A DNA stretch of 64,000 nucleotides from Anthopleura xanthogrammica (lineage: Eukaryota; Cnidaria; Anthozoa; Actiniaria; Actiniidae): assembly GCA_964019055.1 (NCBI GenBank), contig OZ025207.1, positions 15,589,357 through 15,653,356 of the forward strand. The letters run 5' to 3'. This document shows positions 14,668-59,735 of this stretch, in pieces. The position numbers and the translations under genes were made by a program. A model generated the notes under the pieces. The model had not been told where the DNA came from, did no database searches, and saw nothing but the letters and a program-made list of their open reading frames with translations. Position 1 is the stretch's first letter. Every line of letters begins with the position of its first letter.

Positions 14668-16955
14668 TTAATCACTTGTTTTGGTATCAATTTTTTGAAC
14701 TCGTCTTCGCTCTTTCTTGAGACGCCATGGTGACGCGACTAGATGTTTCCTTGTCGCTGTGGGCTCGCAAAGCTTCCTTCCAGTTTGACACAAGGTCTTT
14801 AGTGCATCTGTTAATTTAATTGCTTGACTTGCTAAAATGAACTCTTTTACGCCCATTGACGTCAAACCTTGTCTTTGATGTTGGGATCCCATAGTTGTTT
14901 GGTTTGGTAAATCATTGCAGTGTAGTCTCGTGAATGAGCACATTTCTTCCAGAGCTGGTTCTATCTCTTCTAAGTACTATTCCAAATAATCAAACAAGCT
15001 TTATTAGTAATCATTGATAGAACTGATGGGTAATAGAGCGGTTATCATATGAGTGGGAAACATACGATACTATGGACCTTAAGCAACTCGAAATCTAGAA
15101 CGGGGACGTGAGATCTGAGGTTTCAGAACTGTGATTTAATGATAGAGAAAGATCTGAAAAAGGTGTTACTCCTTGATCTCAAGACGTGAACGACGTGCAA
15201 TTGCTCAACTATCGCATTCTGGCGAGAACGATATCGTCTTTTCTCGTCGTTCAGATACTGACGTTCCCGTTCGAGATTTCGAGTTGCTTAAGGTCCCTAT
15301 TGACTTACAGCACGTACATGGTACGACATGCTGTAACATTGACGCGTGGTTACTGCTACAGTAAGTTATACGGTACGACCACACTGCGGCTACGATTTTC
15401 CCACTTCTACAAAAACCGCTCTATACGGGCTGTTGGAGGTCATTGTAAAGCTGAGACTCGAATCTTCATTTCAAGCGAAAGGAGGTAATCAGCTTTGGTA
15501 TTTCACTCTTTTTCACCCAAGCATTGATCTCCTAAATTGAATTCCTAATTCGTAAGGACTGTCACAAAGTACCCTCAGGCTAACAACAATAGCTTTGATA
15601 ATTCTTAAGTTGTGGCTAAGTAGCTAATGACATCGTTATTATAGTATTTACATTCATTTACTTAGAGAATATGATGATTTTCTTTGGTAATGAATAAAGG
15701 AAACTAAATGGCTTATGTTTTACAGTGAGGACACTCGAACCGTGAACACTTTGAGGTTTTTTCATACTTTTTTTCTCTCCTTTATCCCTTGTGTGAATCG
15801 ATTGGAAATATGATTTATTTTGAACAATAAGATTATTTGAGTTCAGTGCTTCATTTTCAGAGGGTTTGAAGCAGTAGAAAGTTCATAAGTGTTCATGGTT
15901 CGAGTGTCCTCACTGTAATTGTTTAACAAAGATGGCCAAGCATATGTCCACCATCATGATCAGTAACGAATATTTTCACCAAAACAATTATATATTGTAT
16001 TCGAACTCATAAATCATTTGACCAAGAAGAGATAGATAGATAAATACTTTATTACAAACCAGTATTCACGAAACGGTTCGTCCACATGAGCAGAATGTTA
16101 TATGCTCGCTTATGTCTTAAACTACTTACGAATATGCTTTGGTTTACTTGACTGATAAGTAATGCTATTATAGACCTTTCTACACCGTTCATTTCACGGC
16201 TTCTATCATCTAGTGAGTTAATACCAAATAATTCAAATTCAGTTTTTTGGTATAACTATTACCATGCGAGATTATTGAGAGTGCCGTCTTTTCCACTTGC
16301 TTAATAACCGATTACTTATTTCTGGAATGGCGTGATAAAAAACTGGCGAACAGTCTTATACATGTGCAACATAATCTTATGTTTATATAAACGTAAATAT
16401 AAGCGTTTATTAGCTTTTTTGATAATATTATTAATGTGCTTATTCCAGCGAAGAGTATTGGAGAGTTGTCAGAGTAAAGAAAATCCATTTTTAGTGAGAA
16501 ATACTAATTGCGACTTGAATTGAATTCTAGATTCCAAATCAAACTGGCTCAATATAGACTTGCGTTATCATATTGACACAAAACAAACCAATTATTTTTT
16601 TGCAATAGAAAAGATCGAACAGAACATACAAACAAGTTGGTTAATTAGAATGCATAATTAAGAAAATTAAACTGTAATAATAATACTCTAAGAAGTATTT
16701 AGTTTTGTAAGAAGGGAAAATAGTGTAGCGAACAGTAGCTAAGTTTACGAGAAACTCCGTAGTAGTAGTTTTAAAAATCAATAAAAAGACTTAAACTATT
16801 TTAAAAGGATTTTGTTATGCTCTTACCTGAACCATTCGTCGACCTCTTCTTCTGCACTTGCATCTCTTAGAAACTTTTCCAACTTGAACATGAAACGTTT
16901 CTACGCAAACAGCGAGGAATAACAGTACGATTGATGCGTACTTTAGTACATCCAT
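14668..16955 (-). CDS. FHxxVGK/CX6C secreted peptide precursor, member 1
   Basis: Exon 1 (16955-16827, 43 residues) encodes a signal peptide (MDVLKYASIVLLFLAVCVET) and then FHVQVGKVSKR and an Arg/Cys-rich stretch (CKCRRRGRR), ending at a GTAAG donor in phase 0. Exon 2 (14964-14668, 98 residues, acceptor TTAGAAGAG) starts IEPALEEMC. It holds two Cys-x6-Cys motifs: MCSFTRLHCND about residue 51 and LCQTGRKLCEP about 102. The Arg/Lys-rich tail has RLKKERRR. Total 141 residues. The LEE(M/L)C-x-FT-xx-HC(ND) and C-x6-CEP patterns match the members at 43784-46058 and 50358-51001, which pairs the exons across a 1.9-kb intron full of MITEs. The expected role is a secreted signalling peptide cleaved by convertases; no known family recognised. 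Two additional cysteines in exon 1 are unique to this copy. The exact acceptor is the weakest point. Confidence 0.75.
15034..15423. mobile_element. MITE with TAGAGCGGTT termini
   Basis: Termini TAGAGCGGTT (15034-15043) and AACCGCTCTA (15414-15423), followed inside by gtgggaaa/tttcccac. A long internal stem pairs 15075-15110 ('ggaccttaagcaactcgaaa...') with 15261-15296. No coding capacity; the overlapping short frames are by-products. Lies in the intron of peptide member 1. Confidence 0.75.
15723..15915. mobile_element. Tc1/mariner-like MITE with TA target duplication
   Basis: A 193-bp element with 29-bp inverted termini beginning CAGTGAGGACACTCGAACC and ending in its reverse complement, with two or so mismatches. 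It is flanked by TA at 15721-15722 and 15916-15917. CAGT termini with TA duplication fit Tc1/mariner-mobilised MITEs. Intronic in peptide member 1. Confidence 0.85.
16028..16260 (-). mobile_element. Possible LINE 3' end
   Basis: 'gaagagatagatagataaat' followed by 'actttattacaaacc' on + reads, on minus, as a 3' untranslated region closing in an (ATCT)n tail. This resembles the tails of the fragments at 8585-8912 and 62404-62640. No recognisable coding part remains. Confidence 0.3.
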
Positions 16956-17035
16956 AGTGTAGAAAAGACTTTACGCAAAAGGCTGTCCTGTTTTTCAGTC
17001 AAGTCTCTTAGTGAGCGAGTTCTTGCAAACCGGCC

Positions 17036-58800: not shown

Positions 58801-59735
58801 TGTTTGCTGTTTCCGCGTGTGTAAATTTTAAAGCTACCCAACAAGTTATGCCATACGCATAATTAACGGAAACACCAAAACCAATTAAGCAGAAAAATAG
58901 ATACAATACATAAACGGTCGCTATATATGTATATCGCACATATTCTAGCTTATAGGGATTGCTATATATTTATATTATTCTAATATTATATTAACTATTG
59001 AATAAAGATATTACTTGATTCTGGATAATTCTTTTATTATAGATTAATCTTTATTTCTATCTGTTTTCTCTCTACTTTTTTTGTTTTATTGCTTTACTAT
59101 TTTAAACATTTTTGATTTTTCTCCTCTCCCTTCACTTTCTCTCTCTCTATTTCTCTATTTTTCTCTCTCTCTCTCTCTCTCTCTCTTTCTTTTTTCTTTC
59201 TCTCCCTGTCTCTTTCTTTCTTTCTTTCTTTCTTTCTTTCTTTCTTTCTTTCTTTCTTCTTTCTTTCTTTCTTTCTTTCTTTCTTTCTTTCTTTCTTTCT
59301 TTCTTTCTTTCTTTCTTTCTTTCTTTCTTTCTTTCTTTCTTTCTTTCTTTCTTTCTTTCTTTCTTTCTTTCTTTCTTTCTTTCTTTCTTTCTTTCTTTCT
59401 TATATCTATATCTATCTTTATTATAAGTAATAGTTATAACTTTATGTATGGCGACGTACCCGTAACTCAATTGCTGCTAGAACATTTGCAAGGCTGTTTA
59501 ATAAAGTATTATTATTGATATATTATTGATTTATTTTCCTTTTGTCTTTGCTGTGCTATCAGCCATCCCCGTCATTGATCAATGATAACACATCTTTCAC
59601 TATATTGCACTGCCTCATTTGTTCGTCTTCATCTTGTAGGATCGTCAACACAGCCTACACAGGCTTTGTCAAGTCATTCAAAACTATTGCACTAAATCAA
59701 GCCAATACACAGCTGAAAATGGCAACGACCGCTGA
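55886..59735 (+). CDS. Short CX6C secreted peptide precursor, member 6
   Basis: Exon 1 (55886-56014, 43 residues) encodes a signal peptide (MDHRARFVFFLLIASMILVKVEG), then LTVGLGDLE-GKR-GLSSRNYQ and a phase-0 CAG|GTACTC donor. The proposed exon 2 (59640-59735, 31 residues, acceptor CTTCATCTTGTAG) reads DRQHSLHRLCQVIQNYCTKS and ends TAENGNDR. Total 74 residues with one CX6C motif, matching the size and layout of member 5. LTVGLGDL aligns with FTAGAGNV and FHIGVGKV, and GKR would allow LTVGLGDLE-amide. The join spans a 3.6-kb intron containing microsatellites, so the pairing is less certain than for other members. It rests on phase, acceptor quality, the CX6C motif and matching length. A competing cysteine-containing frame at 57334-57522 has no phase-compatible acceptor at its 5' end. 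Confidence 0.62.
56015..59639 (+). other. Intron of member 6
   Basis: Holds AG-rich sequence at 57640-57860, a (GT)n run at 58517-58550 and a very long TTTC array at 59213-59400. The open frames over these are by-products. Confidence 0.5.
59213..59400. repeat. (TTTC)n microsatellite, about 46 units
   Basis: Nearly uninterrupted TTTC from 59213 to 59400 with a single slip at 59257, preceded by CT dinucleotides. It lies 240 bp before the proposed exon 2 of peptide member 6, on the polypyrimidine strand. Confidence 0.97.

Follow-up and report, generated by a model that had tools for sequence, protein, structure and literature searches.

A multi-gene family of probable single-peptide hormone or neuropeptide precursors in the sea anemone Anthopleura xanthogrammica

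INTRODUCTION

Many peptide copies per precursor are common in cnidarians. For the Antho-RNamide, Antho-RIamide and Antho-KAamide precursors, excerpts of a published survey describe one peptide with a Phe directly behind the signal sequence, which gives rise to an L-3-phenyllactyl group (PMC7523074), and for Nematostella it has been reported in excerpts of a second study that dibasic cleavage and amidation from Gly were confirmed by mass spectrometry (PMC11087051). According to the excerpted survey, its discovery script accepts only candidates with no fewer than three processing sites and three similar peptides; the phenyllactyl precursors were located by regular expressions with known peptides as queries (PMC7523074). 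Cnidarian neuropeptide catalogues rely largely on repeated peptides within one precursor, and both of these routes would, we infer, miss a family whose precursors each hold one copy of an unknown peptide. Here we describe six two-exon genes for secreted peptides, G1 to G6, in a 64-kb stretch of the A. xanthogrammica genome (contig OZ025207.1, here C2:15589357-15653356), which is called the window below. In our view these genes probably belong to a family of many genes, each for a peptide-hormone or neuropeptide precursor with one peptide copy. If this is true, the family offers ready-made synthetic ligands for orphan anemone G-protein-coupled receptors (GPCRs) and a test of whether a phenyllactyl peptide can as a rule be predicted from a Phe directly behind the signal sequence.

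METHODS

The genome comprises 289.8 Mb in 125 contigs. G1 to G6 are labels for the six loci of an earlier note on this DNA (the initial annotation); their exons were spliced by hand and predicted signal-peptide cleavage was placed by the -3,-1 rule. The protein searches used the six window genes and their orthologues as queries, and required shared words of five residues; besides the search with all six proteins, further ones returned six and two proteins, and the former was non-exhaustive, having overlooked the protein P0003 despite its presence in the query. Coordinates without a contig name are window positions.

RESULTS

Six two-exon genes in the window

The six loci begin and end where the initial annotation had placed them, and its description of their layout was borne out: each has two coding exons, a signal peptide and a phase-0 GT-AG intron of 324-3625 nt, and exon 2 carries a Cys-x6-Cys (CX6C) motif, twice in G1-G4 and once in G5 and G6. 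The residue before the shared peptide start is A, T, C or G, which is compatible with signal-peptide cleavage. The features are as follows; the octapeptides assume the predicted cleavage.

16827..16955, minus strand: G1 exon 1, signal peptide and FHVQVGKVSKRCKCRRRGRRMVQ; splice model and Actinia tenebrosa P0003 (LOC116289821)
16872..16895, minus strand: G1 predicted octapeptide codons, FHVQVGKV
14668..14976, minus strand: G1 exon 2 and stop, two CX6C, C-terminal Trp element; splice model and orthologue alignment
34890..35018, plus strand: G2 exon 1, signal peptide and N-terminal peptide; splice model and orthologue P0002 (LOC116289798)
34965..34988, plus strand: G2 predicted octapeptide codons, FHIGVGKV
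36389..36661, plus strand: G2 exon 2 and stop, two CX6C with KR sites between them; splice model and orthologue alignment
45945..46058, minus strand: G3 exon 1, signal peptide and N-terminal peptide; splice model and orthologue P0001 (LOC116289799)
45972..45995, minus strand: G3 predicted octapeptide codons, FHIGVGKV, followed by Gly and RRRKR
43784..44059, minus strand: G3 exon 2 and stop, two CX6C; splice model and orthologue alignment
50879..51001, minus strand: G4 exon 1, signal peptide and FHIGVGKISTRRKRPRR; splice model, octapeptide retained in P0009
50915..50938, minus strand: G4 predicted octapeptide codons, FHIGVGKI
50358..50546, minus strand: G4 exon 2 and stop, two CX6C; splice model
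53838..53957, minus strand: G5 exon 1, signal peptide and FTAGAGNVI-KR; splice model, genome search and exon-1 profile hidden Markov model (HMM)
53862..53885, minus strand: G5 predicted octapeptide codons, FTAGAGNV
53415..53513, minus strand: G5 exon 2 and stop, one CX6C; splice model and exon-2 HMM
55886..56014, plus strand: G6 exon 1, signal peptide and LTVGLGDLE-GKR; splice model and exon-1 HMM
55955..55978, plus strand: G6 predicted octapeptide codons, LTVGLGDL
59640..59735, plus strand: G6 exon 2 and stop, one CX6C; splice model and exon-2 HMM

The G3 intron also holds a 348-nt inverted repeat with arms 95% complementary (44163-44510 and 45123-45470), probably a fold-back transposon.

Conservation and coding character

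With an alignment of the six proteins as query, seven proteins were returned at expectation values (E) up to 1. The A. tenebrosa proteins LOC116289799, LOC116289798 and LOC116289821 (P0001, P0002 and P0003, orthologues of G3, G2 and G1, respectively) matched at E 1.7e-30 to 7.3e-27 and are full-length annotated proteins, their genes presumably lying on one contig of 285,989 bases; the same search gave four further proteins from a source labelled lgn. Identity is 101/129 for G3/P0001, 96/130 for G2/P0002 and 104/144 for G1/P0003 (72-78%), and a tree supported the pairs G2/P0002 (99/100) and G1/P0003 (89/95), left the G3/P0001 pairing unresolved and did not place G5 and G6. Conservation of CX6C between species, on which the initial annotation had staked its claim, was found in all three pairs, where 14/14 mature cysteines are kept. 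Adjacent K/R pairs are likewise all kept (22/22), and multibasic runs retain a dibasic pair in 16/16 cases, compared with 31/49 for runs from four other classes of residue (Fisher P=0.003) and 22/30 for isolated K/R (P=0.037). In these pairs, which were found by whole-protein search, 22/24 octapeptide residues are kept, and the C-terminal Trp-bearing element of G1-G3 is also present in their orthologues.

The claim that gene finders would miss such exons holds only in part: the orthologues of G1-G3 are annotated, and protein searches returned none for G4, G5 or G6. No named cnidarian besides A. tenebrosa was returned with the window genes and orthologues as queries; relatives in other cnidarians may exist unseen because the searches used these queries only and needed shared five-residue words. 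The contig protein P0008, which lies over G4 exon 1, is identical to the window in all 41 coding residues, and differs at 4/36 residues before them (one being its start) and 4/25 behind. P0009 represents a more diverged G4-like exon 1 with FHIGVGKI and the basic tail retained.

Differences between paralogues at codon positions 1, 2 and 3 number 64/38/83 over 121 codons for G1/G3, 44/31/59 over 101 for G3/G4, 57/51/74 over 103 for G2/G4, 61/61/80 over 116 for G2/G3 and 55/34/55 over 101 for G1/G4; three of the five pairs show a pattern of the coding type, and the remaining two contain ties. The codon pattern for FHxxVGK[V/I] occurs 17 times in the genome, four of these being G1-G4; none of the other 13, inspected by eye, is preceded by an ATG and a signal peptide, and the reversed pattern occurs 16 times as a control, therefore the matches outside the window look like chance. 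We conclude that the six genes are real.

Further copies on C2, C10 and C11

When G1-G4 and G6 were searched against the whole genome, every significant match lay inside the window. A weak match of G5 (E 0.76) led to an exon on C10 with a signal peptide, FTAGIGNF, GKR and a phase-0 donor, and in total 11 further exon-1 copies were recovered on C2, C10 and C11, one of them provisional and two decayed, with eight clustered on C10.

C10:11119473-11119589 / 11120812-11120925, plus strand: H1, two-exon model
C10:11123663-11123767 / 11124926-11125036, plus strand: H2, two-exon model
C10, exon 1 at 11134994 and exon 2 at 11135665: H3, exon 2 chosen by eye among three candidates, H2-like
C10:11156800-11156693 / 11155182-11155075, minus strand: H5 (also He), two-exon model
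C10, tandem segment: Hc, Hc2, Hd and Hd2, exon-1 copies
C2:16193563: K1, FTAGAGNI-GRR, single copy
C11:4950700: M1, FTAGGGGNVPS-GKR, single copy
C2:15778779: K2, FSMNPGEI-GKR, provisional (E 2.3)

Complete two-exon models are thus available for 10 loci, and seven have exon 1 only or a decayed partner. In the tandem segment the only second exons found stand behind Hc2 and Hd2 and have no cysteines; these tandem second-exon copies, at C10:11141104 and 11148151 beside exon-1 copies with an altered octapeptide, read as decaying duplicates. The FH-type HMMs found nothing convincing in the window flanks (10 kb left and 20 kb right). One flank match of the outside exon-1 HMM (E 0.025), right of the window at C2:15657447 on the plus strand, is an open reading frame (ORF) with a signal peptide, FLCNAHNCP with a CX4C ring in the peptide, RKR, LLK and a phase-0 donor; it has the family layout without the motif and was not counted.

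A restriction of the family to the window is ruled out by these 11 copies. The description as a six-member family amplified in this region was thus too narrow, as eight copies lie in the C10 cluster and others on C2 and C11.

Membership of the window genes

Against an HMM of the other genes, G6 scored 20.1 bits (best of 1000 shuffles 5.6) and G5 9.0 + 3.9 bits (best shuffle 7.8), a weak result for G5. When G5 and G6 were left out of an exon-2 HMM, their second exons took ranks five and six among 5208 ORFs (E 0.15 and 0.27), behind those of G1-G4. Stronger support for their membership came from the outside copies: with an exon-1 HMM from seven of these, the top four of 3499 window ORFs were G5 (E 1.2e-8), G3 (9e-4), G2 (0.08) and G6 (0.08). 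The FH and FTAG subtypes are joined through G2 and G3, with G1 and G4 entering by their likeness to G2 and G3, and the FTAGAGNVI-KR of G5 forms the link between the window genes and the FTAGxGN copies elsewhere.

The N-terminal peptide

The counts over the 17 exon-1 copies given here are non-independent, as several C10 copies are recent duplicates. A Phe is the first residue of the peptide directly behind the signal peptide in 16/17 copies and in 5/6 window genes (G6 has Leu), and the residue ahead of it is A, G, S, T or C. The typical element is F-T-A-G-x-G-N-x followed by Gly-Lys-Arg, with FHxxVGKx as a subtype in the window, and the motif occurs once per gene model. The first dibasic site lies 9-10 residues past the predicted cleavage in 15/17 copies. 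Gly followed by a dibasic site is the usual cleavage and amidation signal; Gly precedes a dibasic site in 15/17 copies (4/6 in the window), directly behind the octamer in 10, and in G1 only after 17 residues.

In the 13 pairs of paralogues compared, replacements in the eight octapeptide codons number 0-2 and silent changes 0-5, against 12-16 replacements in the 18 codons upstream; H1/H2 and G2/G3 each have no replacement and four silent changes. FHxxVGK is best read as a local subtype of a wider family, of which exon 1 is the common part and the second exon the variable one. The initial annotation had proposed an FHxxVGK start together with CX6C; the more constant element is the FTAGxGN-GKR-type N-terminal peptide, as the second exons of H1-H3 have no CX6C and the two decayed copies have lost it.

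The second exon

H5, like G5 and G6, has one CX6C, and H1-H3 have one Cys in each of two segments. Cysteines at positions i and i+7 fall on the same face of a helix. Helix amphipathicity exceeded that of 95% of their own shuffles in 10/16 CX6C segments, which are non-independent with orthologues included, and a disulphide-linked helical hairpin or dimer is plausible because the i/i+7 cysteines share a face and most segments are amphipathic. An HMM of the window helices gave 15.2 bits for H5 (best shuffle 6.7), 6.1 for H2 (7.4), 4.1 for H1 (9.9) and 1.1 for H3 (10.1).

Other features of the window

Two intronless rhodopsin-type GPCR genes lie side by side between G2 and G3 (38277-39281 and 40443-41462, minus strand). 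A ligand-receptor linkage with the window genes found no support; the one tested was the second gene, for which the nearest solved chains are adenosine and histamine receptors.

Two other genes for secreted peptides, distinct from the family above, form a pair with two exons each and, as read by eye, a phase-1 intron.

1594-1666, exon-2 match 3742-3939, plus strand: first gene of the pair
10978-11053 / 12032-12186, plus strand: second gene of the pair

Their precursors end in GGGPPHNRWGGIL-GKR-NY and GPPGKHNRWGGT-GKR-NY, which are neuropeptide-like amidation sites, and their peptides share a Pro-Pro start with cnidarian peptides reported in the excerpted study (PMC11087051). The one protein of this pair that was tested had no Pfam match above threshold, and a third exon-1 relative lies at C10:5418590. 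A 30-bp minisatellite of 17.9 copies, 98% alike, occupies 6315-6850 and has several open frames, one reading (QRFGALGDEK)n, and an interstitial TTAGGG-like repeat array lies at 26183-26425. Rfam and tRNA scans gave no matches.

DISCUSSION

The genes described here are probably single-copy precursors of peptide hormones or neuropeptides. Exon 1 would provide the signal peptide and one short peptide, mostly of 8-14 residues, with a multibasic end usually after Gly, and exon 2 a companion segment with more dibasic sites and with helices that carry Cys and are probably amphipathic. Signal peptidase would leave the Phe at the N-terminus, the short peptide would be freed by a prohormone convertase together with a carboxypeptidase, and the Gly would become a C-terminal amide; conversion of the Phe to phenyllactyl is possible by analogy with other actiniarian precursors. 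The released peptide would act on a receptor, most likely a GPCR, and the Cys helices may pair within or between chains and aid folding, sorting or dimerization, or may be second products. Expression, cleavage, amidation, the phenyllactyl group, the receptor and the role of exon 2 are what we infer from the gene models. We give about even chances to the fuller proposal that about a dozen genes make up an undescribed family of neuropeptides or hormones and encode (phenyllactyl-)TAGxGNx-amide and (phenyllactyl-)HIGVGKV-amide octapeptides, with a disulphide-bearing helical companion in each precursor, possibly as a second bioactive product, and with family expansion replacing the design of many copies per precursor.

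Several observations weigh against this interpretation. G4 and G5 have no Gly as amide donor, P0006, a near-identical contig protein, departs from G2 within exon 1, where the basic tail after the octapeptide is different, and the H1/K1 octapeptides differ by two replacements and no silent change. The constancy of the octapeptide among paralogues is in part ascertainment because the copies were found by exon-1 similarity, and its retention in orthologues comes from three genes only. As for the unity of the family, the outside exon-1 HMM puts G4 at rank 17 (E 11) and G1 at rank 26 (E 18), the first exons of G5 and G6 are absent from the best 16 matches listed for the FH-type exon-1 HMM, and with the window helix HMM none of the H1-H3 second exons scores above the best of its 1000 shuffles. 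Hc and Hd have no second exon of their own in the stretch read, and those of K1, K2 and M1 were not found within the approximately 1.5 kb, 0.1 kb and 0.8 kb read downstream, respectively. Very basic stretches, as in G1, and clustered copies also fit a defence peptide.

This last point leads to the main rival explanation, in which the active venom or antimicrobial product would be the exon-2 helices, cationic, amphipathic and linked by disulphides, with the N-terminal peptide no more than a propeptide. The clustered, diverging paralogues, a pattern also described for anemone toxin families in excerpts of PMC10210398, the very basic stretches and the amphipathicity of the CX6C segments would agree with it. 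However, the most constant part among the paralogues is the N-terminal peptide with its basic end rather than the helices, exon 2 varies by subgroup (two CX6C, one CX6C, or a single Cys in each segment), and no Pfam match was found. Nor are the signal peptides clearly more conserved than the rest, with 14/21, 19/25 and 12/20 identical residues compared with 87/108, 77/108 and 92/125, although that of the G2 pair is slightly more so. We therefore regard this explanation as unlikely. Of the broad assignment to a neuropeptide, hormone or secreted defence peptide, which stands as such, the evidence leans towards hormone or neuropeptide, based on the Phe-start peptide after the signal peptide and the Gly with a dibasic site in 15/17 copies.

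Less probable again is a two-chain helical hormone, in which the exon-2 helices would form the ligand, disulphide-linked after removal of a connector at basic sites, and the N-terminal peptide would be a leader. The paired CX6C helices of G1-G4 suit this idea, as do the two dibasic sites between the G2 helices, which remain dibasic in the orthologue (KR/KR, KR/KK); G5, G6 and H5, however, have a single CX6C, the G3 linker changes from RKR to RKGK in its orthologue, and no insulin-like Pfam match was found. That the exons are chance ORFs, or belong to decayed genes that make no product, is very improbable. They are short, Hc2 and Hd2 are paired with second exons without cysteines, and G5, scored against the other family members, is barely above its shuffles; yet G1-G3 have annotated orthologues with frame, cysteines and basic sites conserved, and the codon positions differ in a coding pattern, as in G1/G3. 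The idea is hardly tenable for G1-G3, and chance ORFs were rejected on the strength of the orthologues.

The preferred reading as hormone or neuropeptide precursors leaves the relation to described families to be considered. None was found in Pfam, among solved chains or in open-licence full texts, in agreement with the initial annotation, which had recognized none. Neither the six window proteins nor the three outside proteins tested (H1, H2 and H5) have a Pfam match above the gathering score, so membership of a Pfam family was rejected; one solved chain, a designed coiled coil by name (E=0.023), was taken as chance. The orthologues are annotated only as uncharacterized proteins, open-licence full texts gave no paper on LOC116289799 or LOC116289821, and a search there for the FH- and FTAG-type motifs, with supplementary files outside its scope, gave nothing relevant. 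SA8 sea anemone toxins have 3-5 microexons according to excerpts of PMC10210398; the present gene models have two coding exons, and this candidate was rejected.

In layout, the insect adipokinetic hormone precursors are similar, with a signal peptide, an amidated peptide of 8-10 residues, Gly and a dibasic site and a companion peptide, and dimeric prohormones are reported in locusts (excerpts of PMC9573411 and PMC7221030). The likeness is one of layout only, as these hormones belong to another phylum and begin with pyroglutamate, where the present family has Phe (Leu in G6). Closer at hand, the Antho-RWamide precursors in the excerpted survey also have a single copy directly behind the signal sequence and several slightly different genes per species (PMC7523074). 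They differ in a mostly Gln (pyroglutamate) start and an RWamide end, and no sequence resemblance was seen.

The closest match is with the Antho-RNamide, Antho-RIamide and Antho-KAamide precursors, which in that excerpted source share with the present family the single peptide behind the signal sequence, the N-terminal Phe and their occurrence in Actiniaria (PMC7523074). Gly and a dibasic site are printed there for FYRVGKR; here they are present in 15/17 copies overall and in 4/6 in the window. More than one RNamide gene is reported in several species. In contrast to the known phenyllactyl-type precursors, Gly is missing in 2/6 window members. The known peptides are phenyllactyl FLRN-, FYRI/FYRV/FYKI- and FFKA-amide, whereas those of the present family are mostly of eight residues, are Gly-rich and usually end in V, I or F, with FTAGxGNx or FHxxVGKx in place of a sequence of the RNamide, RIamide or KAamide type. 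We file it as a new family because the position of the Phe and the single copy agree with these precursors, Gly with a dibasic site is present in most copies and the peptide sequences differ. Set beside them by their published description, the genes described here are best read as a new family that is built like the phenyllactyl precursors and stands outside the RNamide, RIamide and KAamide families.

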